Source: a virus. From it: a stretch of 31,200 nucleotides of DNA. Under the pieces are notes generated by a model. The model was not told the origin of the DNA, made no database searches, and saw nothing but the letters and a program-made list of their open reading frames with translations. Positions 4,157-29,586 of this stretch are shown here, piece by piece; the stretch's first letter is position 1, and every line of letters starts with the position of its first letter. The position numbers and the translations under genes were made by a program. The stretch is from IMG/VR virus record IMGVR_UViG_3300028384_000677, positions 1-31,200 of that record; one strand, given 5' to 3'.

Positions 4157-4747
4157 ATGAATACAAGTATTGTAGATTTATTAGAAGCATACCCGCTTCC
4201 TGAACAAAAAGAAAAACCTCCATATAAAATTTACTGCGATATGGACGGTGTGTTAACTGATTTCGAAAAGAGGTTTTACGATAAACTTAACGAAATAGGA
4301 CCAGACTACTATCCGTTAAAAGATATAAAAAAAGTAGTTAAACCTAAAGATTTTGAAAATATCTTCGGTATAGAAGAGTTTTGGAATTTTATTGACGGTA
4401 TAGTTGGTGTAGGTTTCTGGGCCGGTATGGATTGGATGCCGCAAGGTAGAGAGTTATGGGAGTTTATTAAACCGTATCAACCTTCTCTTCTTACTTCTCC
4501 TTCTAAAAATAATACTTCTAGATTAGGTAAAAACTTATGGGTAAAAAATCACCTTACCCCAAAACCTAAAACCATATTTGCTTACTCAGCTGACAAGCAA
4601 AGATATTCTAACGAGAATAGTATTCTTATAGACGATAAAAAATCAAATATTAAAGAGTGGATAGCAAAAGGCGGAATCGCTTTTAGAGTAAAAGGTGGTG
4701 ATATTGGCCCTGCTATTCAAGGATTAAAAGAGTTAGGTTATGAATGA
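4157..4747 (+). CDS. HAD-superfamily phosphatase/nucleotidase
   Basis: The 196-aa protein carries HAD motif I as YCDMDGVLTDF, with nucleophile Asp28 and acid/base Asp30. LLTSPS at about 111-116 is the likely motif II, GKNLWVKNH at about 124-132 supplies a Lys for motif III, and SILIDDKKSNIKEW (Asp159/Asp160) is motif IV. These are the four catalytic elements of a HAD phosphohydrolase such as a 5'-nucleotidase or polynucleotide 3'-phosphatase. The first ten residues, MNTSIVDLLE followed by Ala, look like a capsid-targeting peptide placed ahead of the enzyme core. The gene starts 1 base after the preceding stop and overlaps the next by 8 bases. Together with the upstream kinase it could form a split end-healing pair, but that is speculative. 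Confidence 0.8.
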   Translation: MNTSIVDLLEAYPLPEQKEKPPYKIYCDMDGVLTDFEKRFYDKLNEIGPDYYPLKDIKKVVKPKDFENIFGIEEFWNFIDGIVGVGFWAGMDWMPQGRELWEFIKPYQPSLLTSPSKNNTSRLGKNLWVKNHLTPKPKTIFAYSADKQRYSNENSILIDDKKSNIKEWIAKGGIAFRVKGGDIGPAIQGLKELGYE

Positions 4748-7278: not shown

Positions 7279-10200
7279 ATGACGTACGATGAAATCAAAA
7301 ATCGTCTAAATCAAGTTGAAACCGCTTTGCAAAGCATTCAATCATATGATTCAACTAAGTTAGACCCTTCTTATGCCTCAACTTCTGTTGAGCAACTTAC
7401 CACCATCAAAGAATCATTAAAACAACAATTAGCAGAAGCAGAAGAAACTATGTTTGTTTCTACCAAAGGCGGTGATACAAAAGCCGTAAAGATGGATAGA
7501 AAAACTGCTATGGACCTTAAAAAAGATCCTGCTATTACTGGAATCGATTCAGCAAAAGGTGCAAAAATTAAAGAACAAGAAGGCATCAGCTTTTCATTAG
7601 AAGAAACTAAAGCTATTGCTAAATCAGTCGGAAAAGGGCTACTAAAAGCACTTAAACAGGCTGGAGATGAAGTAGCTAGAATTAAGGCACATCGTATTGA
7701 AGAAAATAGTTTTGATATTCATGTAACCTATAAAGGAGAGTCTGGAGAAGATGAATTTTCTTTCTACATTGATGAAGATGCGTTGCACTTAGTAGATTTT
7801 TCTTTCGATAAAGAGTTAGTTAATGTAGGTGTTAAACCTTCAGGAGAAGCTATCGTTCACGTTGATCACCTAGCAAACGAGTTATTAAAGCACTTCAAAT
7901 CTTTAAATGAGCAAGTAAACGAAGTAAACTACGATTATTATACTACCCCAAAACATTTTGATATTTGTCCTGGAGCAGAAGCTTTAAGAGATGAAGTAAT
8001 TGAAGGAGGTAAATCACCAGAAGAATTAGGTGAGTGGACTTTCAAACACGACGAATTATTTAAGTTAGAAAAAGCAGTCTTAAAAGCTAAAAAAGCCGAT
8101 GAAAGACATGTTAAAGTAGCTAATAAGTTAAGAGATGAAATTATTCATTTATCTAGAGAGTTAGGTATAGAAGCCGGTAAAATAAATTACTTAAAAGGAC
8201 ACGTTAGGAAAATTGAAGATATCGCCGCAGGTAAAGAGGTAGATGAAAACTACGCAATCATGATGGCTGCTCAAAGAGCAATGGCTGCTAAAGCTAAAAA
8301 AGATAAAGAGAAAAAAGATAAAAACGAATACAACTCAGGTATATATTACGACGACGAAAAGACTAAACCAAGACCTAGAGTAAAAGTAAAGAAAGAAGGA
8401 GAAGGAGATGATCACCACTACTTAAAGGTATCTAGAAGAGATTATAAAAAGACAATGTCTATTCTAGATAATAATGTAGATCCAACTTACGTAAAAACAG
8501 AAGTAGTAGACGACGACGGAGCAGGAAATGTAATTATCTACTTTATATTTAGACATGAGTATGGATTCGATCCTATGTACGACGATCCAGAAGGATTAGA
8601 AAACCCAGAACTATATCAAGAACCAGATGAAGATCCACACGCATTTATGTATGATGTAGTAATGGATTTAAGAGCTCACGGTATAGATGTTCAAGATCAT
8701 AGCGCTGAATTAGATGAAGCTATGGACATTAATGACCCAGTCTTAATGAAAATGAGAGCTGCTAAAGCTTACAAACCAGGTCCAAAACCATCCCCTAAAC
8801 GTCATCCAAAACCTAAAAATGCTAGTGATTTACGTAAATTAGATGCTTTAGAGAAACGTAGAGCTCAAATTATGCGTGATATGGAGCAAGAAGCTGAACC
8901 AGAAGGAGGTCCAATCGCTGACAGATATGGTGACATGCTTAATAAAATTGATGCCGAAATTGCTAAATTAGAAGGTAGAAAAGAAATGGACTATGATACA
9001 GCAGTCGGTCTTAGAGAAAATCAACCAACAGTATTCGATGATGAGAGTTTTGATGCTTTACGTGATATCATTTTAAAATATGTTGAAGATCCAGACGATG
9101 CTGAAAAAGCAGTACAGCAGGTAGATGATCACGGATTAGATTCATTAGCTCCAGAGTTAATCGCTAACCTAGAAAGAGATCCAGAATTCGAAGCTTGGTA
9201 TCATAAACTTCACTACGGTTCTGATGCGGATACAGATTATATGCAGAGAAGAAGAGCTGAAAAAGACTACATGGAAGAAGATACTGATGTAGGACATCAA
9301 GATGATGAGCCTGGAATGTTAAAATCAACTTCTTACGAAATAGCAACTTATGCTGCTAAATTATATAAGAAACTAGCTAAGTATGACCAAGTAGACGGAG
9401 AAGTAGATTTTCCTAACTGGTGGCAATCAAAATTAATCTTAGCTAAAGATTATGTATCAAAAGCATATCATTATTTAGATTCAGAAGAAAAACAACCTAT
9501 CATTGATAAGTTAGCTTTAGAGCATGCAATAAATGAATCAACTGATTTGTTTAGAGACGATAAATTTGCTTTTACTAGATTCTCTATGGGTAAAGAAGGT
9601 CCTGGATTACAGATAACTGATCTTAAAAAGCTAGGCGAGTATATACACGTTTCAGGTAAAGATCTAGACCAGTTTGTTAAAGGACTTATGAAAGCTGTTA
9701 GGGTATTTGACGATATGAAAAGACAATTACCGGTAGATGAAAGTGCTGCTAAGATTCAAAAAGCACACGGTCAAGTTGTTGCTAAAATGAAAGAATTAGC
9801 TAAGCAATATAAAGCCGGTGATAAATCAGTAGTAGCTCAATTAAAAGATTTAACTGCGAAAAAGAAACAATTAGAAAAGCATTTAGATGCTGCAGTAGCC
9901 GGAATCGGTAAGAACCAAGGATTAACAGAACTATCAGGAGATCAAAGAAATGATTTAGTTGAACTTCAAAACATCTTAGACGATGTTGCCCAAAAAGGAG
10001 AGGAAGCTAGAGAAATTATTAGACAATCATTTCCAAGAATGTTATCTAAAGCAGATGCCTACGGAGCATTCGACTTTGGTTCTAGTGCTAATAGATACGA
10101 CACTACATTAGAATCTATCATCGAAGAGATCGAGGAATATTACGATGAAGAGGAGGATCTAGACGAAGGTAAAGAAAAAGAAGGTCAAATGGCTGCTTCT

Positions 10201-11010
10201 AAAGGAAAGAAGTATAGCGATAATCCTTATAAAAAAGGCACCAAAGATCATTTAGCATGGTCTAAAGGACATAACTCATCTAGAGCTAGAAAATTAAGCT
10301 TAAAAGAATGGGGATCCTCAGATCAACATGCAATGAATCAATCAATGCATAGAGATTTAGGAGAACCTAAAGAATTTCCAGGACTCTCTAAATTAATGGA
10401 TGCTGCTGAAGATGCGGTAGATTTCTACTGGGATGATTGGGAAGAATATAAGACTGATAGAGAGGGACTTGTAATGCATGCAGCTCAAATGTACGCTAGA
10501 AAGATGTTCCCTGACTTTATGAAAATGGCTGCCAGAATGGTAGAACCAGCTGATGAAGGAAAGTATAAATCTGACGCTCAAAGAAAAGCAATCTATGCTG
10601 CAAAAGCAGAAAAGAATGAATCTTTTAAAGTAGGAGATAAAGTAACATATCTAGGACACCCAGGCGAAATTACTAAAGTAAATAAGGAAATGACTGGTGC
10701 TATTACCTATAATGTAGCTTATAACAAAGGTAATGGTAGAACTAAAGTAACAAACATCTATAATAAAGGTGGAGAAATAAAAGCTGTAAAGGAAGCTGAA
10801 TTATCTAAAGGCGAAAAAAAGAAGTTAAAAGATATGAGCAAGTCTTTAAAGAAATCAACTAAAGGACATGCAGCTCAAGCTAAATACTTAGATAAGTTAG
10901 TAAAAGAACAAAAAGCAACATGCTGCGGAAGATGTGGTAGAGTTCATGTAAAAGGAACTAAATGTAAAAGTCCCTACTTAAAAGGAAAAGATCACTGTAG
11001 ATATAATTAA
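7279..11010 (+). CDS. 1243-aa mosaic protein of small phage modules, putative virion protein
   Basis: This is the longest gene in the window. It is highly charged and appears to be a string of modules. After a coiled-coil N-terminus there are long Lys/Glu helical regions. NPYKKGTKDHLAWSKGHNSS (from residue 982) resembles a ribosome-modulation-factor-like motif. KYKSDAQRKAIYAAKAEKN follows, then an SH3/KOW-like segment VGDKVTYLGHPGEITKV (about 1117-1133) and SKGEKKKLKDMSKSLKK. The end is a Cys-rich knuckle (Cys1215, Cys1216, Cys1219, Cys1229, Cys1240) that may bind zinc. Segments are separated by acidic stretches with candidate sites such as LDE/A, INE/S, LTE/L and LDE/G. Its place ahead of the head genes suggests an internal head protein or a polyprotein cut by the gp21-like protease; that is inference. 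Confidence 0.6.
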   Translation: MTYDEIKNRLNQVETALQSIQSYDSTKLDPSYASTSVEQLTTIKESLKQQLAEAEETMFVSTKGGDTKAVKMDRKTAMDLKKDPAITGIDSAKGAKIKEQEGISFSLEETKAIAKSVGKGLLKALKQAGDEVARIKAHRIEENSFDIHVTYKGESGEDEFSFYIDEDALHLVDFSFDKELVNVGVKPSGEAIVHVDHLANELLKHFKSLNEQVNEVNYDYYTTPKHFDICPGAEALRDEVIEGGKSPEELGEWTFKHDELFKLEKAVLKAKKADERHVKVANKLRDEIIHLSRELGIEAGKINYLKGHVRKIEDIAAGKEVDENYAIMMAAQRAMAAKAKKDKEKKDKNEYNSGIYYDDEKTKPRPRVKVKKEGEGDDHHYLKVSRRDYKKTMSILDNNVDPTYVKTEVVDDDGAGNVIIYFIFRHEYGFDPMYDDPEGLENPELYQEPDEDPHAFMYDVVMDLRAHGIDVQDHSAELDEAMDINDPVLMKMRAAKAYKPGPKPSPKRHPKPKNASDLRKLDALEKRRAQIMRDMEQEAEPEGGPIADRYGDMLNKIDAEIAKLEGRKEMDYDTAVGLRENQPTVFDDESFDALRDIILKYVEDPDDAEKAVQQVDDHGLDSLAPELIANLERDPEFEAWYHKLHYGSDADTDYMQRRRAEKDYMEEDTDVGHQDDEPGMLKSTSYEIATYAAKLYKKLAKYDQVDGEVDFPNWWQSKLILAKDYVSKAYHYLDSEEKQPIIDKLALEHAINESTDLFRDDKFAFTRFSMGKEGPGLQITDLKKLGEYIHVSGKDLDQFVKGLMKAVRVFDDMKRQLPVDESAAKIQKAHGQVVAKMKELAKQYKAGDKSVVAQLKDLTAKKKQLEKHLDAAVAGIGKNQGLTELSGDQRNDLVELQNILDDVAQKGEEAREIIRQSFPRMLSKADAYGAFDFGSSANRYDTTLESIIEEIEEYYDEEEDLDEGKEKEGQMAASKGKKYSDNPYKKGTKDHLAWSKGHNSSRARKLSLKEWGSSDQHAMNQSMHRDLGEPKEFPGLSKLMDAAEDAVDFYWDDWEEYKTDREGLVMHAAQMYARKMFPDFMKMAARMVEPADEGKYKSDAQRKAIYAAKAEKNESFKVGDKVTYLGHPGEITKVNKEMTGAITYNVAYNKGNGRTKVTNIYNKGGEIKAVKEAELSKGEKKKLKDMSKSLKKSTKGHAAQAKYLDKLVKEQKATCCGRCGRVHVKGTKCKSPYLKGKDHCRYN

Positions 11011-11013
11011 GAT

Positions 11014-12708
11014 ATGCATAAATTAGAAAAGCTCATATTAGAGTCCTACGCACAGCTACTAACTGAAATGGACGGTGGCCGATTATTTGATTACTTTAGA
11101 TCAAAAGGATACGATATAACAGAACGCAGACCAGATGGTTACCCACCCAAAGAGGGAGTAGAAGGATACATGGTGAGTAGAGGTTCAGGAAGAGCTCCTC
11201 AATCAGTAATATTTCAATATAATAAAGATACTGATGAATTTACAATCAGTAGAATGAGCGGCTATAGAATCGATCAAAAAGAAGCTATCAAAGCAGGAAT
11301 GAGACAAGCAGGCCGTTCAGGTGTAGCCGGTATTGATTCTTATATGACTGATGGAAATTACACACCAGTAGAAATCTCAGCAGAAGGTTTAAAAGACATA
11401 GTAGACCATGTAATGAGCGGTTTAGACCGAGAAAGCAAAGCTCAATCAGACTTTTACAAAGATAGAGGACATACATCAGGTACTATAGATGAAATGTCTA
11501 AATCTGATATGGAAAAGAAAGCCGGTAGCAATATTATCCGTTGGTCAGATTTAACTGATGCTCAAAGAGCAGGTCTTATAAAAAGATACGGTGAGCCTAA
11601 ATACGACGGTAAACATGATTTCTTTGATAGCGATATGGAAACATACTTTAGAGCTTACGATAAGAATACTGAAACGGGATCTGTCGGAAGTGAAGTAATT
11701 AAACTACCTTCCTTTGCAGCTGTTTACCATGGCTTTTCAAATATTATAAAAGATATTAAAAAGTTAATGGGATCTGACGATGTTAGAAAAGATGAAGCAG
11801 CTAGAGAATTATTTGAGTTAATTAAAACTAACTTTAGAAAACTTCAAAGATACCTTAGAACGGAAAGACCTGAGCAGTACAGAATGCTTAAGATGCAAAG
11901 AATGATGGAAGGTATTGAAAAATCTCTTTTAAAGTTAGAAGTAAAATACACAGGACCATTCGTATATAGTAATAGAATGTCTGATAAAGAGTTAAAAGAT
12001 ATGTATGATGCAGCTTTAGATGGATATGCAAATTATCAAAAAGGAATGCAACATTCTAAAGCAGATTATAAAAAAGCTTATCAAGATATAGAAGCTATTT
12101 TAAAATCAAGAGGAGTACTAAGCGAATCTTTATTAGATGAAGTAGAAGACGAACCGAAACCAGAACAAGAACCAGATACAAAAGCATCTAAAGAAACAGT
12201 ATTAGAGGATGCCACAGATCAAATCTTGGCTAAGTTTCCTACTCTAAAAGCAGCTATTATTAAATTACAAACAGAAGACTTCAAAGAATTTGTCGATAGT
12301 ATAGATTGGATTTCTCCAAGACCAACAGAGTTTAGAATCAATCTAAAAAACGGTCAAGATTATATCTTAAAATGGACCGGTACTGGATTTGAAGCTCAGA
12401 TAATGGGTAAAAGATTTTATATCGACAAAATAAACGATTATCAACAAGCGTTAGATAAATTAGCTATATTATATAAAGAAGGTCCAATGACCGGAGCCGG
12501 TGAAGGAGAACCTGCTGATGTAGATTCAGGAGGCTCTTCTGGAGGCGGAGGCGGTGATTTCCCTGGAACTGACGCTGCCGGAGGCGGTGGAGAAGATGAC
12601 CTAGGAGCTGACGACCTTGGAGGAGAAGAAGGCGGTGAAGAAGGCGGAGCCGACCTAACAGGAGAACCAGTTGATTTTGAAGAACCAGCAGAAGAACCAG
12701 AAGCATAA
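11014..12708 (+). CDS. putative internal head protein with Gly/Asp/Glu tail
   Basis: The 564-aa protein begins MHKLEKLILE followed by Ser, then AQLLTE followed by Met: two consecutive LxE sites like the leader of T4 internal proteins. The body is mainly helical and charged, with no catalytic motif I can identify. FRINLKNGQDYILKWTGTGF (about 440-460) looks like a small beta domain. From about residue 490 the sequence becomes almost entirely Gly, Asp, Glu, Ala and Pro, an acidic disordered tail. It follows the mosaic gene by 3 bases, and its stop TAA shares a base with the next ATG. I infer a packaged or core-associated structural protein. Confidence 0.55.
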   Translation: MHKLEKLILESYAQLLTEMDGGRLFDYFRSKGYDITERRPDGYPPKEGVEGYMVSRGSGRAPQSVIFQYNKDTDEFTISRMSGYRIDQKEAIKAGMRQAGRSGVAGIDSYMTDGNYTPVEISAEGLKDIVDHVMSGLDRESKAQSDFYKDRGHTSGTIDEMSKSDMEKKAGSNIIRWSDLTDAQRAGLIKRYGEPKYDGKHDFFDSDMETYFRAYDKNTETGSVGSEVIKLPSFAAVYHGFSNIIKDIKKLMGSDDVRKDEAARELFELIKTNFRKLQRYLRTERPEQYRMLKMQRMMEGIEKSLLKLEVKYTGPFVYSNRMSDKELKDMYDAALDGYANYQKGMQHSKADYKKAYQDIEAILKSRGVLSESLLDEVEDEPKPEQEPDTKASKETVLEDATDQILAKFPTLKAAIIKLQTEDFKEFVDSIDWISPRPTEFRINLKNGQDYILKWTGTGFEAQIMGKRFYIDKINDYQQALDKLAILYKEGPMTGAGEGEPADVDSGGSSGGGGGDFPGTDAAGGGGEDDLGADDLGGEEGGEEGGADLTGEPVDFEEPAEEPEA

Positions 12709-13784
12709 TGAACGTAGTAGATAAATTATACACAGAATGGGCTTGGAGATCTAAATCAGGTACTCCCTCAATGGATAATGCTGAAGATAAAGCTATACTA
12801 GATAACTTAATTGCTGAATTAACTAATGCAGACGGTCAAGTATCCAAAGCAGAAGTAATAGATGCTATACAAAAAGGAGATTTTTCTCCTGAGCAATTAC
12901 AGTCTATTTTAAATAGCGTATCAGGAGTTGCATTTAAAGAAGATGTACTGGAGTTTTTAAATAATAAAGGAAAATCAGTCTCTTCTATTTCTAAAACTAT
13001 TTACAATAGACTGGTTGAAAACGGAGATATACAGGCATATCACCAGTATATCAAAGGTAGCCCTGTAAGTTACGATGGGTTAGGTTCTACAGGTAACTTA
13101 AAAGCTAAATTTAGCAAATTATTTTCAGAAGCTACTATTAACTTTTTATTAGATATTAAACCTCAAGTAGGAAACGTAGCAACAGGTAAAGGAGAGGTTT
13201 TCCTATGTGCTATGACTTCAGATGTTAATGGAGATACATCTTCCGGTGATGTTGGGGTAGGTACTAAAGGAATTGAGGTTAAGAATAAATCTGCAATACC
13301 AATGGGACAAAAAGCTCAATTTGGTAAAAATACTGATAAAAAATTTATTGAAGATGCTATTGCCGCAGTAAATAACATACTAGAGGAACCCATACAGGTT
13401 AACACTAGAGGTAAAAGACCTTTACATAGACTAAATATTATTTTGGATGCAGTAGCAGAACAAGATAGGGATAAAATAGACGGAGCAATTGGTGCAATAG
13501 ATAATGCATTTAGAAGTAACTACCCAGGATTAGACTTTTCAGATTTTAGTTTGAAAAATTATAAAAAAGGGAATGGAATAGATGCAGACGCAGCAGAACA
13601 AATGTTCGGTAAAAAAGTAATTAAGTTGTATACAGATACAGAAGAATTTGAAGAAGTATTCTTCTTAGACGATTCATCTGGTAATTTTGCAAAAGTACCT
13701 TCTAATAAACTAGTAAATCTAGTAGGATCTAAAATTAAGATTTGGATGAAGGACGGACTACCTAGATGGACGTATAACTTCTAA
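12708..13784 (+). CDS. PD-(D/E)XK-like protein with capsid-targeting-like leader
   Basis: The 358-aa protein starts MNVVDKLYTE followed by WAWRSKSGTP. Residues 1-10 match the length and end of T4 internal-protein leaders, and WxWR...G(M/T)P resembles a segment I recall in T4-like marine phage proteins. The centre has GKGEVFL (Glu163), SSGDVGV (Asp181) and GIEVKNK (Glu190, Lys192). The order E...D...E-x-K is the PD-(D/E)XK nuclease active-site pattern. It lies directly before the terminase gene (4 bases between), so a role in DNA processing at packaging is also possible. Nuclease activity is inferred from one motif set, and other folds cannot be excluded. Confidence 0.6.
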   Translation: MNVVDKLYTEWAWRSKSGTPSMDNAEDKAILDNLIAELTNADGQVSKAEVIDAIQKGDFSPEQLQSILNSVSGVAFKEDVLEFLNNKGKSVSSISKTIYNRLVENGDIQAYHQYIKGSPVSYDGLGSTGNLKAKFSKLFSEATINFLLDIKPQVGNVATGKGEVFLCAMTSDVNGDTSSGDVGVGTKGIEVKNKSAIPMGQKAQFGKNTDKKFIEDAIAAVNNILEEPIQVNTRGKRPLHRLNIILDAVAEQDRDKIDGAIGAIDNAFRSNYPGLDFSDFSLKNYKKGNGIDADAAEQMFGKKVIKLYTDTEEFEEVFFLDDSSGNFAKVPSNKLVNLVGSKIKIWMKDGLPRWTYNF

Positions 13785-13788
13785 AGTT

Positions 13789-15360
13789 ATGAGTCAAGAC
13801 ATAAAAAAAATAATCGCACAAGAGTATATCAAGTGCGCCAAAGATCCGGCGTACTTTATGAAGAAATATTGTTATATTCAGCATCCTACTAGAGGTAGAA
13901 TATTATTTAATTTATATCCTTTTCAATCTAAAGTATTACACTTATTTAGAGACAATCAATATATTATTACATTAAAGTCAAGACAGTTAGGTATTTCAAC
14001 TTTATCTGCTGCTTATGCTTTATGGTTAATGTTATTTCATAAAGATAAAAACGTTCTTGCTTTAGCAACTACTCAAGCTACTGCTCGTAACTTAGTTTCT
14101 AAGACAATGTTTATGTATGATCAGTTACCTAAATGGTTACGTTTACCGGCATTAGAAAAGAACAAATTATCTTTAAGACTTAAAAATGGATCTAAAATTA
14201 CAGCGAAATCTTCTAATACTGATGCAGCAAGATCCGAGGCAGTATCATTACTACTTATCGATGAGGCAGCCTTTATTGATAACATTGAAGAAACGTTTAC
14301 AGCAGCTCAACAAACATTAGCAACCGGTGGTCAATGTATGGCTTTATCAACACCTAATGGTATTGGTAACTGGTTCCACCAAACTTGGGAAAAAGCTGAA
14401 AGCGGTGAGAATTCATTCTTACCTATAAAATTACCTTGGACGGTACATCCTGAAAGAAATCAAGAATGGAGAGATCAACAAGATTCTGATTTAGGACCTA
14501 GAATGGCTGGACAGGAATGTGATTGTGATTTCTTAGCTTCTGGGGATACAGTATTTGAACCAGATGATATGCTGTTCTTTGAGCAAACATATTTAAAAGA
14601 TCCTCTTGAAAAAAGAGGTGTAGACGGTAACTTATGGATATGGGAACCTGCTGATTATATGAAATCTTATATGGTTGTAGCTGACGTTGCAAGAGGTGAT
14701 TCTGCCGATTATTCTGCATTTCATATATTTGATATTGAAACATGTACTCAAGTTGGCGAATATAAAGGTAAATTATCCCCTAAAGATTTTGGTAACGTAT
14801 TAGTAGGAATAGCATCAGAATATAATCAAGCATTACTAGTAGTAGAAAACGCAAATATTGGATGGGCTACTATAGAGCAAATAATGGAACGTCAATATAG
14901 TAACTTATACTATAGTTCTACCTCTCAAATGGAAACTGTAGAATCTTATATGTCTAAATACGAAAGAGATAAATTAGTTCCTGGTTTTACTATGTCAGTT
15001 AGAACTAGACCTTTAGTAGTAGCTAAGATGATAGAGTATATAAGAGAAAGAGGAGTTACTATTCAATCTAAAAGGCTATTAGGTGAAATGAGAGTATTTG
15101 TATGGAAGAACGGTAAACCACAAGCTCAAACAAACTATAATGATGATTTACTAATGGCTTGTGCAACCGCATTATACGTTAGAGACACAGCGTTAAGATT
15201 GAGACAGCAGGGTATGGATTTAGCTAGAGCTCAATTATCTTCTTTCCAGAATTTAAATGCTAAAAATAAAGCTGTAATGAGAGGAGTTGGAAATCAGCAA
15301 AATAATCCTTATATTGTAGATAATGGCTATGGTCAAGAAGATATATCTTGGTTATTATAA
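13789..15360 (+). CDS. 17: terminase large subunit, gp17-like
   Basis: The 523-aa DNA-packaging motor has an N-terminal ATPase with the deviant Walker A SRQLGIST (residues 64-71) typical of T4-type terminases, and Walker B LLLIDEA (154-160, catalytic Glu159). ALSTPNGIGNWFHQTW at about 185-200 is the coupling motif region. The C-terminal RNase-H-fold nuclease shows VVADVARGD (Asp299), VVEN (Glu353) and YNDDLLMA (Asp452/453) as metal ligands. It cuts concatemeric DNA and pumps it through the portal into the prohead. It is shorter than T4 gp17 (610 aa). No small-terminase gene is visible beside it. The portal gene follows after a promoter-bearing gap. Confidence 0.95.
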   Translation: MSQDIKKIIAQEYIKCAKDPAYFMKKYCYIQHPTRGRILFNLYPFQSKVLHLFRDNQYIITLKSRQLGISTLSAAYALWLMLFHKDKNVLALATTQATARNLVSKTMFMYDQLPKWLRLPALEKNKLSLRLKNGSKITAKSSNTDAARSEAVSLLLIDEAAFIDNIEETFTAAQQTLATGGQCMALSTPNGIGNWFHQTWEKAESGENSFLPIKLPWTVHPERNQEWRDQQDSDLGPRMAGQECDCDFLASGDTVFEPDDMLFFEQTYLKDPLEKRGVDGNLWIWEPADYMKSYMVVADVARGDSADYSAFHIFDIETCTQVGEYKGKLSPKDFGNVLVGIASEYNQALLVVENANIGWATIEQIMERQYSNLYYSSTSQMETVESYMSKYERDKLVPGFTMSVRTRPLVVAKMIEYIRERGVTIQSKRLLGEMRVFVWKNGKPQAQTNYNDDLLMACATALYVRDTALRLRQQGMDLARAQLSSFQNLNAKNKAVMRGVGNQQNNPYIVDNGYGQEDISWLL

Positions 15361-15402: not shown

Positions 15403-17292
15403 ATGGCCGATAAATCACTATTTGGAAGACTACAGAGACTATTTTCTTCTGACGTAATTATAAGAAACGTTGGCGGTACTGAATTAAAGGTAGCAGATAT
15501 TAATCGTATACAAACTACTGGCAATTTTGAGACCAACGCACTTATTGATAGATTTACAAGATTACACGTTTACAATAAACAGAATATCTTCAATCCTAAC
15601 CTTAACTACCAAACGTTAAGAATACAATTATACTCAGACTATGAAGCAATGGATACAGATCCTATTATTGCTTCTGCCCTAGATATTTTAGCTGACGAAG
15701 CTACTTTAAAAAACGATATGGGCGAAGTACTGTCTGTAAAATCATCAGACGAAAATCTTCAAAGAGTACTTTACAATTTATTTTATGACGTATTAAACAT
15801 AGAATTTAACCTTTGGTCATGGGTTAGAGGTATGTTGAAATATGGAGATTATTTTTTAAAGCTGGAAATAGCAGAGAAGTTCGGTGTCTATAACGTTCTT
15901 CCATATACAGTATATAATATGAATAGACACGAAGGTTCAAACCCAGAAAAACCTTCTGAAGTTTTATTTAGTATTGATCCCGACGGTATTGCTTCTTCTC
16001 AAGATCCTAATTATATTCCTAAGAGAGATAGTAAAGTGATTACTTTAGACAATTATGAAGTAGCTCATTTTAGATTAATATCAGACCACGCTTACCTTCC
16101 TTACGGTAGATCATATATCGAACCAGCTAGAAAAATATTCAAACAATTAACGCTAATGGAAGATGCGATGTTAATTCATCGTATAATGAGAGCTCCTGAA
16201 AAGAGAACTTTCTTTGTTAACGTTGGTTCAATTCCTCCTGCAGAAGTTGATCAGTTTATGCAAAAAACTATCAACACTATGAAAAAGACTCCTTATGTTG
16301 ATCCAAAGACTGGTCAATATAACTTGAAGTTTAACATGCAGAATATGATGGAAGACTTCTACATCCCTGTAAGAGGTGGAGATGCTTCTACTAGAATCGA
16401 AACTACTAAAGGTTTAGATTACGACGGAACAAACGATATTCAATATTTACAAGCTAAGATGTTTGCTGCTCTTAAAATACCGAAAGCTTATTTTGGATAT
16501 GAAGGGGACTTACAAGGTAAAGCAACACTCGCAGCAGAAGATATTAGATTTGCTAGAACAGTAGAAAGAATACAAAAAATCTTAGAATCAGAGTTAACTA
16601 AAATTGCTCTGGTTCATTTATATACTCAAGGTTTCACCGGAGAAAGTTTAACTAACTTCGAATTAAAGTTAACCAATCCTTCTGTAATATACGAACAGGA
16701 AAAAGTAGCTTTATTAAAAGAGAAGATAGATTTAGCTAATCAAATGAAAGACTCTAAATTATTCTCATCAGATTACATCTATGAAAACATATTTGATATG
16801 TCTGAAGATCAGTATAATGAGATGAGAGACTTAGTTAGAGAAGACGGAAAGAGAGCATTTAGAATTGCTCAAATAGAAGCAGAAGGAAATGACCCAGCTA
16901 AATCAGGAAGATCATACGGTACTCCACATGACTTAGCCTCTATGTACGGTAGAAGAGCTACTTCAACTGAGAAAGGAGCTGGTTTTGGAGATGTACCAAG
17001 TGGCTACAATGAAGTAGGACCTGAAGGCGGTAGACCTAGAGAAAAAATGTCGGTGTACGGTACTAACGACGATCCTATGGGTGGGAGAGATAGATTAGGT
17101 GTTCATGGTATGCACGGCGGTTTCCCTTCTGACAATGAAAATATGTCGGAAACTAATACCACAAAAGCACAAACTATCTTTCATCAAATTAAAGATTCTT
17201 TTGAGGATAATAAAAAACTTATCTTTGAAGAAACTAAAGAAACTAAATCTAAACTATTAGATGAAACTCAATTACGAGATTTAGAGGACTAA
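15403..17292 (+). CDS. 20: portal vertex protein, gp20-like
   Basis: The 629-aa protein has the conserved T4-type portal core. RAPEKRTFFVNVGSIP starts at residue 263, followed by KTPYVDPKTGQYNLKF, MEDFYIPVRGGD and YLQAKMFAALKIPKAYFG, matching in order the well-known RAPERR...VDxxTG...LEDYxxPRR...ALxxP pattern of gp20. Twelve copies form the ring at the DNA entry vertex, dock the terminase and start prohead assembly. The C-terminal 120 residues are a Gly/Arg/Glu-rich extension, probably flexible and facing the head interior or the neck. It lies between terminase and protease, as expected for head morphogenesis genes, but no tail sheath or tube gene lies between gp17 and gp20 as in T4. Confidence 0.95.
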   Translation: MADKSLFGRLQRLFSSDVIIRNVGGTELKVADINRIQTTGNFETNALIDRFTRLHVYNKQNIFNPNLNYQTLRIQLYSDYEAMDTDPIIASALDILADEATLKNDMGEVLSVKSSDENLQRVLYNLFYDVLNIEFNLWSWVRGMLKYGDYFLKLEIAEKFGVYNVLPYTVYNMNRHEGSNPEKPSEVLFSIDPDGIASSQDPNYIPKRDSKVITLDNYEVAHFRLISDHAYLPYGRSYIEPARKIFKQLTLMEDAMLIHRIMRAPEKRTFFVNVGSIPPAEVDQFMQKTINTMKKTPYVDPKTGQYNLKFNMQNMMEDFYIPVRGGDASTRIETTKGLDYDGTNDIQYLQAKMFAALKIPKAYFGYEGDLQGKATLAAEDIRFARTVERIQKILESELTKIALVHLYTQGFTGESLTNFELKLTNPSVIYEQEKVALLKEKIDLANQMKDSKLFSSDYIYENIFDMSEDQYNEMRDLVREDGKRAFRIAQIEAEGNDPAKSGRSYGTPHDLASMYGRRATSTEKGAGFGDVPSGYNEVGPEGGRPREKMSVYGTNDDPMGGRDRLGVHGMHGGFPSDNENMSETNTTKAQTIFHQIKDSFEDNKKLIFEETKETKSKLLDETQLRDLED

Positions 17293-20318: not shown

Positions 20319-20897
20319 ATGGCACAATTACTAGTAGAAGTATCAACATTTAGACCTATTATTACCGAATCAAAGACTAAGCCGGGAGTATTCGAGGTTG
20401 AAGGTGTTATGCAAAGAGCTTCAGCTAAGAATCAAAACGGTAGAGTTTATTCTAAAGCTATATTAGAAAGAGAGATGAAAAAATATATGCAAGAATTCGT
20501 TAAGAATGGTAATGCATATGGAGAATTAGATCATCCTGAATCTCCTGTTGTATCTTTGAAAAATGCTTCTCATATTGTAAAGGACCTATGGTGGAATGGA
20601 GATGACTTAATGGGTAAAGTTGAGTTACTAAACACACCAGCAGGTAATATTGTAAAAGAAATAATCAAAGCAGGACATACTATCGGTATTAGTTCTAGAG
20701 GTACCGGATCAGTTCAACAGACTAACGAAGGTAATTTAGAAGTACAACCAGACTTTGAATTAGTATGTTGGGACTTTGTATCTAATCCATCTACTCACGG
20801 TGCATTTATGAATCCTATATCGTTAAATGAAGGTAAAAAGAAAGTTTCTAAGTATATGAATTTAGATTCTATTATTAACGATATATTAAGAGCATAA
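20319..20897 (+). CDS. 21: prohead core protease, gp21-like
   Basis: The 192-aa serine protease of the T4 gp21 type has GELDHPE (catalytic His72), IVKDLWWNGDDLMGKVEL (about 87-104) and GISSRGTGS (catalytic Ser at 125/126). These align with GELNHP, the DMWW region and VSSRGLGS of T4 gp21 as I remember it. It matures the prohead by cutting scaffold, core proteins and the capsid N-terminus after (L/I)xE sites. Its own start, MAQLLVE followed by Val, carries such a site, like T4 gp21 (LLIE), consistent with self-processing. The gene starts 3 bases after the preceding gene and shares one base with the next. Confidence 0.93.
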   Translation: MAQLLVEVSTFRPIITESKTKPGVFEVEGVMQRASAKNQNGRVYSKAILEREMKKYMQEFVKNGNAYGELDHPESPVVSLKNASHIVKDLWWNGDDLMGKVELLNTPAGNIVKEIIKAGHTIGISSRGTGSVQQTNEGNLEVQPDFELVCWDFVSNPSTHGAFMNPISLNEGKKKVSKYMNLDSIINDILRA

Positions 20898-21427
20898 TGA
20901 AGTTAGCAGATATAATATTCGAAAGCGACGAACAACAGTTAGGAGCCGAATTAGCTAAAGCCTTTGAAAAAGAATTTGAAAAAGAAGGTCAAGTCAATGA
21001 AGCGTTAACAGTTGTCGGTATACTAGGTTGGGCACTTGCTTCAAACACAGTACTTGACGTATTAGGTAAATATGCTGCTAAAGGATTTAAAAAATTAGGA
21101 TTAGATAAAGCAGCTGATAAAGCAGACGCAGTTCATAAATGGGCTCACAATAATGAAGTTAATATAGTTAAAGCAATCTCAGGATTTATTAAACCCTTTG
21201 TAAGAGATCAAAAGAAAAGAGATTTAGTTGCAAAAGGATTATTTATTGCTATGTTAGCAGGTTTAGGAGTAAAGGCCGGAATCGGTGCATTAAATGCTCT
21301 GAGAGGCGGAGGTTTTGCCTCAGCTACTATATCTGCTGTTAAAGCTGCTCTAAAAGGAAGAGACATTGCAGTAGTAGGATCCGAAATCGCTGCCGCTGCA
21401 GGCGGGGTAGCTAAAGCTATATCTTAA
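20897..21427 (+). CDS. hydrophobic putative internal head protein
   Basis: The 176-aa protein starts MKLADIIFE followed by Ser, and a second site VNE/A lies at about 33-36. Both look like prohead-protease sites. Three hydrophobic stretches follow: about 37-56 (VVGILGWALA), 114-134 (GLFIAMLAGLGVKAGIGAL) and 156-174 (VVGSEIAAAAGGVA), separated by basic amphipathic segments. The composition, rich in Ala, Gly and Lys, resembles membrane-active proteins. Between the protease and scaffold genes T4 has no such protein, so this is an insertion into the conserved 21-22-23 order. I infer a packaged protein that could act on membranes during ejection. It is followed by the longest gap in the window. Confidence 0.6.
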   Translation: MKLADIIFESDEQQLGAELAKAFEKEFEKEGQVNEALTVVGILGWALASNTVLDVLGKYAAKGFKKLGLDKAADKADAVHKWAHNNEVNIVKAISGFIKPFVRDQKKRDLVAKGLFIAMLAGLGVKAGIGALNALRGGGFASATISAVKAALKGRDIAVVGSEIAAAAGGVAKAIS

Positions 21428-22623: not shown

Positions 22624-24195
22624 ATGGAATTAAACAACCTATTAGAAAGCGCAAACGGGTACAAAGCCCTACAAGAAGACGCTAAAAGGTTAGCTGATAA
22701 ATGGGGTGCTTCTGGATTGCTTGAAGGTCTTGGAGAAAAAGAGGCAAATAACATGTCTATCATGTTAGAAAATCAAGCAAAACAAATCGTAGCTGAGCAA
22801 TCATCTACTGGTACTTCTGCAATCGGTGCTGCAGGCGGTGGATCTGAGCAATGGGCAGGCGTTGCTTTACCTTTAGTAAGAAAGGTATTCGCACAAATCT
22901 CATCTAAAGATTTCGTCTCTGTACAACCTATGAACTTACCTTCTGGACTAGTATTTTACTTAGACTTTAAGTACGGTACTGCTGGACACGGTAAAACTAA
23001 CGACTCAAGCTTATACGGTAACGTATCAGTTGTTGACAAAATCGGAGTAGATGTAGATCCTTCTGGTGGTTTATACGGTGCTGGTGCATTCGGATATACT
23101 ATCGCTACTGGATCTGACGTTACTTTAACATCTCAAGCTACTGGATCTGCAGCTTCTGCATCAGTAAACTTTGATGACGATTTAGATCCTGCTGACTTCT
23201 TTACTGTAAGCGTAGCTGCTCCTTCTGGATACGACGTAGACGGTGTAAGAGCATTTAGATTAATCTCAGGTTCAACTGATATTACTTCTAACCCAGAGTT
23301 AACTTACGTAGACGGTTCAAACATCGTATTCGTAGTAGCTAACACTGAAATGACTGCTGGCTCTATTGCAAGTGGTGCAATGAAATGGCACGTAGCTCCA
23401 ACTGACAACTCAAGAGGAGACTTCGAAGACAATCCTGCTGGATCAATCAATATCCCAGAAATCAACGTAGAGTTAAAATCTGAAGCAGTTGTTGCTAAGA
23501 CTAGAAAGTTAAAAGCACAATGGACTCCAGAATTCGCTCAAGATCTTAACGCTTACCATAGCATCGACGCTGAGGCTGAGTTAACATCTTTATTGAGTGA
23601 GTATATCTCTATGGAGATTGATCTTGAGATCTTAGATATGTTGATTGGTGGTGCTAGAACTACTGAAAAGTGGTCTGCTGACAACAACAGAGTATGGAAC
23701 GGAACTGCTTGGGCTAACGCTAACAGCGGATTCTACAATACTCAAGGACAATGGTTCCAAACTTTAGGAACTAAAATCCAAAAAGTATCTAACAAAATTC
23801 ACCAAAAAACTCTTAGAGGTGGTGCTAACTTCCTAGTATGTTCTCCAGCAGTTGCAACTATCCTAGAATCAATTCCAGGATACGCTGCTCAAACTGACGG
23901 TGATCAAGCAGAGTTTGCAATGGGTGTTCAAAGAGTTGGACAACTTAACGGTAGATACAAAGTATACAAAAACCCTTACATGACTGAAAACACAATCCTA
24001 TTAGGATTTAGAGGTGGTCAGTTCCTAGAAAGCGGTGCTGTGTATGCTCCATATGTACCACTAATCATGACTCCATTAGTATACGATCCAAATACCTTCA
24101 CTCCAAGAAAAGGTATCATGACTAGATATGCTAAGAAAATGATTAGACCAGAATTCTACGGTAAGATCTACATCTCAGATATGACTGCAGTGTAA
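22624..24195 (+). CDS. 23: major capsid protein, gp23-like
   Basis: The 523-aa capsid subunit has T4 gp23 signatures: VQPMNLPSGLVFYLDFKYG (about 100-118), VAKTRKLKAQWTPEFAQDL (about 290-308), DAEAELTSLLSEYISMEID, GGANFLVCSPAVATILES, LNGRYKVYKNPYM and YAPYVPLIMTPLVYDP. The N-terminal 58 residues form a removable propeptide: IVAE58 followed by QSSTG is the likely protease site, matching cleavage after Glu65 in T4. The first residues MELNNLLE/S also look like a scaffold-binding leader. Residues about 120-270 hold a Ser/Thr/Ala/Asp-rich region unlike the conserved core, probably a surface insertion domain. A strong terminator follows. Confidence 0.96.
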   Translation: MELNNLLESANGYKALQEDAKRLADKWGASGLLEGLGEKEANNMSIMLENQAKQIVAEQSSTGTSAIGAAGGGSEQWAGVALPLVRKVFAQISSKDFVSVQPMNLPSGLVFYLDFKYGTAGHGKTNDSSLYGNVSVVDKIGVDVDPSGGLYGAGAFGYTIATGSDVTLTSQATGSAASASVNFDDDLDPADFFTVSVAAPSGYDVDGVRAFRLISGSTDITSNPELTYVDGSNIVFVVANTEMTAGSIASGAMKWHVAPTDNSRGDFEDNPAGSINIPEINVELKSEAVVAKTRKLKAQWTPEFAQDLNAYHSIDAEAELTSLLSEYISMEIDLEILDMLIGGARTTEKWSADNNRVWNGTAWANANSGFYNTQGQWFQTLGTKIQKVSNKIHQKTLRGGANFLVCSPAVATILESIPGYAAQTDGDQAEFAMGVQRVGQLNGRYKVYKNPYMTENTILLGFRGGQFLESGAVYAPYVPLIMTPLVYDPNTFTPRKGIMTRYAKKMIRPEFYGKIYISDMTAV

Positions 24196-28596: not shown

Positions 28597-29586
28597 ATGG
28601 CAAACTGGAAAAAGATAATAGTTAGTGGATCTGACGCTCATTTAGCTTCGATTACTTCCTCTATACTTACAAACGACAACATTTTAGTAGCTGGCGCAGG
28701 TGGAGCTATCGAAAGCAGCGGGATTACCTACGATGGTTCTACTTTCGGCCTAGGCACCTCAGTAATAACTTCAACAGGAGCAACATCTATCCTTTCAGGT
28801 TCCTTTAGCGGTTCCTTCCAAGGAGATGGTTCAGGATTAACAGGGTTACCTACTAGTCTTAGTATTGTTGGCGATACAGGTACCGATACTGTTGACCTAC
28901 TTAACGATACGTTAACATTTGACGGAGGTACTAGCTTATCAACCACAGTAACTAATAACCAAGTATCTGTAGGTGTTGATGCAGGAGGAATTACAGAGAC
29001 TCAGTTAAATACTTCAGTTGCAGGTACCGGTTTATCAGGAGGTGGTGGTACTGCATTATCAGTTGATTACGGAACAACAGCAGGTACAGCAGCACAAGGT
29101 AATGTAGGATTAACATTTAGCGGTACAGCAAACGAAATTGAATTATCTACTAACACTGTTTCAACAGTCGGTGGCGGAGGTAGTGTTGTAATTGGCTTAC
29201 CAAATAACGTTGCAGTTTCTAATAACTTAACAGTCGGTGGTGATTTAACAGTAAGCGGTACAACAACAACTCTAAATACAGCTAACTTATTAGTAGAAGA
29301 TAGATTTATTCTTCTTAATTCTGGTTCAGCCAATCCAGATGAAGGTGGTATCGTAATTGATGAAGGAGCAGGATCTGGACATGCATTCATTTATGAAGCA
29401 GATGCAGGTGTAACTAGATGGGGTTTCAATGCATCTGTTGATAGTACAGCCACTACAGCTAATACAACAGCTTATGCTGCAGCAGTAGTAGATGAAACTA
29501 ACACAAACCACTCTGATTCAGCTGAATACCAAAAGAACGGAAATATTAAAATAGATTCTTCAGGAGAAATTTGGATTTATTCATAA
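28597..29586 (+). CDS. tail-fibre/appendage protein with WKKIIVSGSDA N-terminus
   Basis: The 329-aa protein is rich in Gly, Ser, Thr and Val, with shaft-like repeats (STGATSILSGSFSGSFQGDG, LTVGGDLTVSGTTTTLNTAN). A C-terminal domain contains LLVEDRFILLNSGSANPDEGG, IVIDEGAGSGHAFIYE and TRWGFN. The latter segment recurs in fibre-like proteins of marine phages. The first residues, MANWKKIIVSGSDAHLASI, are nearly repeated at the start of the gene at 29876, so this is probably a shared attachment module. I expect a structural protein of the tail tip or fibres; its receptor is unknown. Confidence 0.7.
   Translation: MANWKKIIVSGSDAHLASITSSILTNDNILVAGAGGAIESSGITYDGSTFGLGTSVITSTGATSILSGSFSGSFQGDGSGLTGLPTSLSIVGDTGTDTVDLLNDTLTFDGGTSLSTTVTNNQVSVGVDAGGITETQLNTSVAGTGLSGGGGTALSVDYGTTAGTAAQGNVGLTFSGTANEIELSTNTVSTVGGGGSVVIGLPNNVAVSNNLTVGGDLTVSGTTTTLNTANLLVEDRFILLNSGSANPDEGGIVIDEGAGSGHAFIYEADAGVTRWGFNASVDSTATTANTTAYAAAVVDETNTNHSDSAEYQKNGNIKIDSSGEIWIYS

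Follow-up and report, generated by a model that had tools for sequence, protein, structure and literature searches.

The locus upstream of the terminase gene

The window studied here is a 31.2-kb virus record that carries a T4-type head module. Directly 5' of its gene for the terminase large subunit (TerL) lies an open reading frame for a protein of 358 residues, which the original prediction had described as a PD-(D/E)XK-like protein next to the terminase. The position given for it is right: the ORF runs from ATG to stop, its start shares 1 nt with the stop of an upstream 564-aa ORF, and 4 nt separate its end from the TerL gene. The features discussed below are the following, in coordinates of the window.

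11014..12708, + strand: upstream 564-aa ORF, with the leader MHKLEKLILE, a conserved domain and an acidic, Gly-rich tail
12708..13784, + strand: nuclease gene, 358 aa, N-terminal module plus PD-(D/E)XK-type nuclease as predicted from the ORF, its homologues, the predicted structure and purifying selection
12708..12821, + strand: N-terminal module, codons 1-38, a candidate targeting or docking segment delimited by the drop in conservation after residue 38
12708..12737, + strand: MNVVDKLYTE, possible T4-type capsid-targeting leader (phi-phi-x-E pattern, invariant Glu10)
12807..12818, + strand: LIAE, residues 34-37, a second phi-phi-x-E at the edge of the module and candidate protease site
12822..13784, + strand: exchangeable cassette that runs from codon 39 through the stop and comprises a helical part, the nuclease core and C-terminal strands, delimited by comparing identity in the flanks and in the cassette among relatives
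13194..13196, + strand: Glu163 codon, at the start of helix 163-169
13248..13250, + strand: Asp181 codon (PD motif)
13275..13283, + strand: Glu190-Val-Lys192 codons, E-x-K motif on strand 187-192
13789..15360, + strand: TerL (gp17-like), the 3' limit of the slot, with its nuclease residues kept
15403-17292: portal
20319-20897: prohead protease
22624-24195: major capsid protein

The 564-aa ORF is probably a cargo-cluster neighbour of the nuclease gene; its long acidic, Gly-rich tail follows the conserved domain, and its relatives differ widely in length (564, 707 and 251 aa). Further upstream (7279-11010) is a fast-changing, Lys- and acid-rich ORF of 1243 aa (885 aa in the close relative L003) that has no family match. 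At the other end of the window, the neighbouring ORFs at 28597-29586 and 29876-end have similar starts (MANWKKIIVSGSDAHL / MPNWKKLIVSGSDANL) and are probable tail or fibre paralogues.

Scans of IMG/VR returned full-length relatives at 49-90% identity and many more at 20-30%, along with further relatives that have only residues 1-50 in common with the 358-aa protein. The homologue in a cultured phage is QQO91872 (immuto26A_193) of Flavobacterium phage immuto 2-6A, annotated as a hypothetical protein. In nearly all loci long enough to judge, the nuclease gene precedes TerL and is read in the same direction. The gap between the two is 3-10 nt in most of the window's clade, the exceptions being L001, with an apparent 564 extra nt, and L064, with a broken ORF; members of the immuto clade have 0.9-2.3 kb with other genes between the two. 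The apparent extra 564 nt of L001 (3221-3785, from the nuclease gene to the mapped TerL start) may represent an insertion into the beginning of TerL. Among the bacterial genomes searched, a single relative was found, on a MAG contig: this B-type relative (L130, 2535-3548) lies on a contig binned as Maricaulis and is most likely phage DNA in the bin. No B-type relatives were found in plasmids.

Profile searches of the 358-aa protein against Pfam, PHROGs, NCBIfam and PADLOC gave no match of weight, and searching PDB sequences revealed neither a usable family nor a significant match to any solved enzyme. Scattered weak matches to profiles and PDB sequences agree on nothing, and we rejected them as a family assignment. 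The PD-(D/E)XK superfamily is known for such divergence, and a missing profile match does not decide against membership.

A predicted nuclease of restriction-enzyme type

The original prediction had read an active site, Glu163, Asp181, Glu190 and Lys192, in the segments GKGE, SSGDVG and IEVKNK, and had proposed conservation among homologues and structure prediction as checks. The numbering is correct, and both checks came out in its favour. All four residues are invariant (47/47) among aligned sequences that share 17-90% identity with the target, and outside the N-terminus the only invariant columns are G160, E163, G180, D181, E190 and K192, which excludes a chance origin of the motif. A looser E...D...(E/S)xK pattern is present in all 76 classified homologue proteins, across 12 C-terminal clusters, and in 21 further proteins that were found by the module alone, all of them next to TerL; since the pattern is permissive, we take it as supporting evidence only.

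The AlphaFold2 model built from the 47-sequence alignment (mean pLDDT 91.4, pTM 0.79) shows the expected PD-(D/E)XK core, in the order helix 163-169, strands 182-184 and 187-192, helix 293-312, and strands 316-320 and 326-331; D181 falls just before strand 182-184, while E190 and K192 lie on strand 187-192. Searching the PDB with this model by Foldseek gave nothing better than E 2.1. When the Foldseek candidates were aligned with VIA, the restriction enzyme HinP1I came first (Z 5.9, 104 residues, 3.1 A), followed by HhaI (Z 5.1), and the next rows include HinP1I again (4.9) and the D212 virus nuclease (4.0). These Z-scores are modest, all below 8, and only VIA, not Foldseek, put restriction enzymes first; the nuclease call thus rests on motif, topology and ranking together. 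In BFVD, Foldseek found three predicted structures from uncultured Caudovirales at E 3e-10 to 3e-7 (A0A6J5L5I7, A0A6J7WGY6 and A0A6J5TDS8), which resemble the target's at 11-17% identity and have no known function.

A second line of evidence comes from C-type relatives (L104 and kin), which carry the motif ISEVLL...[AT]D[IL]...SLK and a C-terminus without detectable similarity to that of the target. A separate model, built from 6 sequences (pLDDT 72), best matches ThaI (Z 8.4; entry 3ndh, titled only "restriction endonuclease"), followed by SfiI (7.6), BglI (7.0), NaeI (6.4) and EcoRV (6.2), and also PvuII and HincII. Almost every top match is a type II restriction enzyme, with the resolvase Hjc among the lower rows. 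Two C-termini with no detectable mutual sequence similarity thus both resemble restriction enzymes.

The claim that the protein is a nuclease is well supported by the conserved residues, the predicted core and the type II restriction enzymes at the top of the structural matches, and we regard the 358-aa protein as a predicted PD-(D/E)XK nuclease of restriction-enzyme type. We infer that its substrate is DNA and that it cuts sequence-specifically. The gene is under purifying selection, with dN/dS of 0.12-0.26 over residues 121-358 compared to 0.06-0.10 in TerL; within a type the selection is relaxed 1.4 to 3 times relative to TerL; strong positive selection was not seen, dN/dS being below 0.3.

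A constant module in front of exchanged nuclease domains

Residues 1-38, for which two helices are predicted (residues 3-14 and 25-42), are strongly conserved among 76 distinct N-termini, with M1, E10, W11, A12, R14, G18, P20, D27 and L31 invariant, and the information content drops past residue 38. Between phages that carry different nucleases, 26-57% of the module codons that specify the same residue differ. We thus rejected recent recombination as the mere cause of the constant N-terminus; with so many synonymous sites changed, its constancy reflects selection on the protein. In every case a nuclease-type domain follows the module, and no other kind of protein was found to carry it. Each of five large genomes has the module once, on which ground we also rejected it as a general leader carried by many proteins. 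Being longer and more conserved than a capsid-targeting sequence (CTS), single-copy and confined to the nuclease, the module may dock on a specific partner; it may be either a docking domain or a longer propeptide (residues 1-37).

The sequences behind the module fall into 12 clusters at E < 1e-20 and into 4 at 1e-4, which we count as at least 12 nuclease clusters in 4 superclusters. When the clusters are placed on a TerL phylogeny of 72 phages, no fewer than 37 changes are required, where the minimum possible is 11 and the mean after shuffling is 42.1; nuclease type is thus almost uncoupled from descent. The exchange can be seen directly in four pairs of near relatives (L022/L057, L069/L055, L043/L070 and L037/L074). 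Their upstream and downstream flanks are 92-98% identical and codons 1-38 are 83-88% identical, while the stretch from codon 39 to the stop is 48-52% identical, no more than unrelated DNA shows when aligned. Identity is lost at about codon 38 and recovers at the start of TerL, with different nucleases in between; the locus is thus a slot in which cassettes for restriction-enzyme-like nucleases are exchanged. The interval from nuclease gene to TerL is likewise variable in the immuto clade. By sequence comparison and modelled folds, at least 12 clusters of the predicted nuclease domain are exchanged behind a constant module in otherwise near-identical phages.

Such swapping, as read from the sequences, favours a function in conflict. 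It also bears on the idea that the protein is a DNA-repair or recombination nuclease, standing in for a Holliday-junction resolvase or endonuclease VII and clearing branches before packaging. PD-(D/E)XK resolvases do have the same fold, and Hjc appears among the C-type matches; however, housekeeping resolvases are not expected as swapped cassettes between near-identical phages, and immuto encodes another endonuclease, whose annotation relates it to the archaeal resolvase. We consider this role highly improbable.

The main rival to delivery in the phage head is a packaging nuclease docked on the terminase. The module would then dock on TerL or the portal, the exchangeable domain would cut the phage's own packaging-start site, and the nuclease would occupy the slot of the T4 small terminase gp16; if the packaging-start site lies inside the gene itself, enzyme and site would be exchanged together. 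Such a self-consistent exchange needs no immunity gene, and it would suit a single-copy module found only on the nuclease protein as well as the close spacing to TerL in the window's clade, although the immuto clade has its intervening genes at this point. A search for the T4-type small terminase family PF11053 found no match in the target protein and none in the five large relatives, but this empty result is also compatible with a divergent small terminase. Small terminases are not known to be nucleases. When aligned to T4 gp17 structures, TerL keeps D, E and D at the nuclease positions (the gp17 triad is named in PMC3012670), and headful packaging of the T4 kind needs no second nuclease. We regard packaging specificity as a possible but rather unlikely function; were it the true one, the protein would represent a new kind of terminase specificity factor.

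Possible head delivery and comparison with known systems

In T4, CTSs are 10-19 residues long, and in that of IPIII residues 4 and 7 serve targeting while residues 8 and 10 serve processing; the prohead protease gp21 cleaves after L/I-x-E (PMC9026906). MNVVDKLYTE is equal in length to the IPIII CTS, has hydrophobic residues at 3/4, 7 and 8, and places Glu10, which is found in 76/76 distinct N-termini, at the position of the cleaved Glu. On this sequence pattern a packaging leader is plausible. Residue 8, however, is Tyr in 58 of the 76 N-termini (Val in 16, Leu in 2), among them most sequences of the window's clade, at odds with L/I-x-E. Conservation also continues past Glu10 to residue 37-38, and a leader that is cut off would not need residues 11-38 to be so conserved. 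The second phi-phi-x-E, LIAE, where cleavage might also take place, has E37 in 70/76 and L or I at residue 34 in 76/76.

In immuto, a phi-phi-x-E start is present in 13/24 ORFs at 102-124.7 kb, before and around TerL, compared to 21/189 elsewhere, with an internal background of 8.5% (Fisher P 3.6e-6, which is optimistic because the region was chosen after a first scan). In the window, leaders ending exactly at Glu10 are found on three ORFs (starting at 1181, 11014 and 12708). Leader-like starts are seen at 1181-2098 (MIKLADLILE), 4157-4747 (MNTSIVDLLE), 11014-12708 (MHKLEKLILE) and 20897-21427 (MKLADIIFE). The leader-bearing ORFs, which include a P-loop ATPase-like protein and a 5'-nucleotidase-like enzyme, are possibly further head cargo enzymes. 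The ORF at 20897-21427 (176 aa) has a hydrophobic C-terminal part, and a search covering part of the close relative G001 turned up no counterpart. A second candidate targeting leader, nearer to the classical shared CTS, is the immuto start MENxFDLKKFLVENKLTxNS, which occurs with small variations on four otherwise different ORFs (L113 1803-2318; L115 5806-6354, 19631-20632 and 20632-20931).

The step from leader to head entry, as originally proposed, was thus borne out in part: the T4-like length, Glu10 and the leader-enriched segment speak for it, while Tyr8, the single copy and the conservation of residues 11-38 do not fit. In T4, leader fusions can bring EcoRI and staphylococcal nuclease into heads (PMC9026906). 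We found no published natural head-packaged nuclease among open-licence papers, and no virion proteomics on any member phage in the open-licence literature.

Taking these observations together, we suggest, at a probability of roughly one half, that the protein is a nuclease delivered from the head and encoded at an exchangeable cargo locus, with delivery like that of the T4 internal proteins and action like that of a restriction enzyme. In these T4-like phages of Bacteroidota, the nuclease has a fixed place, immediately upstream of the terminase gene, whose occupants are swapped. The module would bring it into the prohead as the T4 capsid-targeting sequence brings internal proteins, and the prohead protease might trim the module at Glu10 or Glu37. 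Ejected together with the genome, the nuclease would cut DNA that lacks the phage's own base modification, such as the host chromosome, plasmids, prophages or rival phages. The frequent exchange might be driven by pressure to acquire new sequence specificities for use on hosts or rivals, and the phage genome itself would be protected by 7-deazaguanine modification and not by a cognate methylase. Packaging, delivery, substrate, specificity and target are all steps that we infer.

With respect to self-protection, no immunity gene or methyltransferase was found beside the nuclease gene in the window's clade, nor any methyltransferase among the window ORFs searched. A homologue of the immuto DpdA, a protein of 7-deazaguanine DNA modification, is found in all five relatives of at least 150 kb, at 77-100% identity in three and at 29%, a weak match, in two; this evidence comes from the large relatives, the window being a fragment without that region. 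Immuto also encodes QueC, QueD, QueE, FolE and QueF, and 7-deazaguanine bases are known to shield phage DNA from restriction (PMC6884629). The case that such modification explains a restriction-type nuclease without a methylase is circumstantial. Looking for avoided palindromes in the whole window and in L135-L137 yielded no decisive result: the window's clade has few CGCG sites (0 against 5.8 expected in the window, 2 against 12.0 in a relative), for which other explanations exist. In immuto, CGCG is much less depleted (9 against 11.7 expected).

In another reading, the nuclease would not be packaged and would act late in the producing cell, degrading host or co-infecting DNA, with the module as a folding or oligomerisation element. 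The invariant active site and predicted core, the probable modification of the phage DNA and the position among late genes all agree with such a role, but it leaves the constant module with its exchanged remainder unexplained, as well as the leader-rich neighbourhood, and we think it unlikely. Returning to head delivery, we put forward, as somewhat less likely than not, a phage "polymorphic restriction-enzyme" weapon: a head-delivered, sequence-specific nuclease with cassette-swapped specificity, a constant targeting module, and a modified genome in place of a methylase or immunity gene.

The homologue from a cultured phage, QQO91872 of immuto, is like the target in its module, its active site and its place upstream of TerL (30% identity over residues 1-198), and differs in lying ~1.4 kb from TerL with two leader-bearing ORFs between. 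For exchangeable proteins delivered from the head, the T4 internal proteins are the reference case; the ones with known function inhibit or modify. Like the nuclease locus, T4 IP1, IP2, IP3 and Alt combine a constant short N-terminus and an invariant Glu10 with diverse bodies at a fixed locus, and T4 and the phages with the nuclease slot have the T4-type head genes in common, including the gp21 protease. A constant leader with unrelated bodies at a hotspot is described for the T4 proteins (PMC12373910; PMC3012670), and the nuclease locus presents the same arrangement. In the five large genomes a leader shared with other head proteins is not seen, the other proteins bearing different phi-phi-x-E leaders. 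The present system also differs in that the body is a predicted nuclease rather than a restriction-enzyme inhibitor or an ADP-ribosyltransferase, that the constant segment is 38 residues long and sits on one protein only, and that its virion location is putative.

If the slot does hold only restriction-type nucleases, phages would be using restriction enzymes offensively, and the slot would be a rich source of such enzymes, in at least 12 clusters, that fall outside the known families. The type II restriction endonucleases HinP1I and HhaI have in common with the target the PD-(D/E)XK site, the predicted core and a strong sequence divergence; for the C type, the corresponding enzymes are ThaI, SfiI, BglI and EcoRV. 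What sets the target apart from type II restriction-modification systems is a nuclease gene without an adjacent methyltransferase, an N-terminal module in front of the enzyme, and a place among the late genes of a phage.
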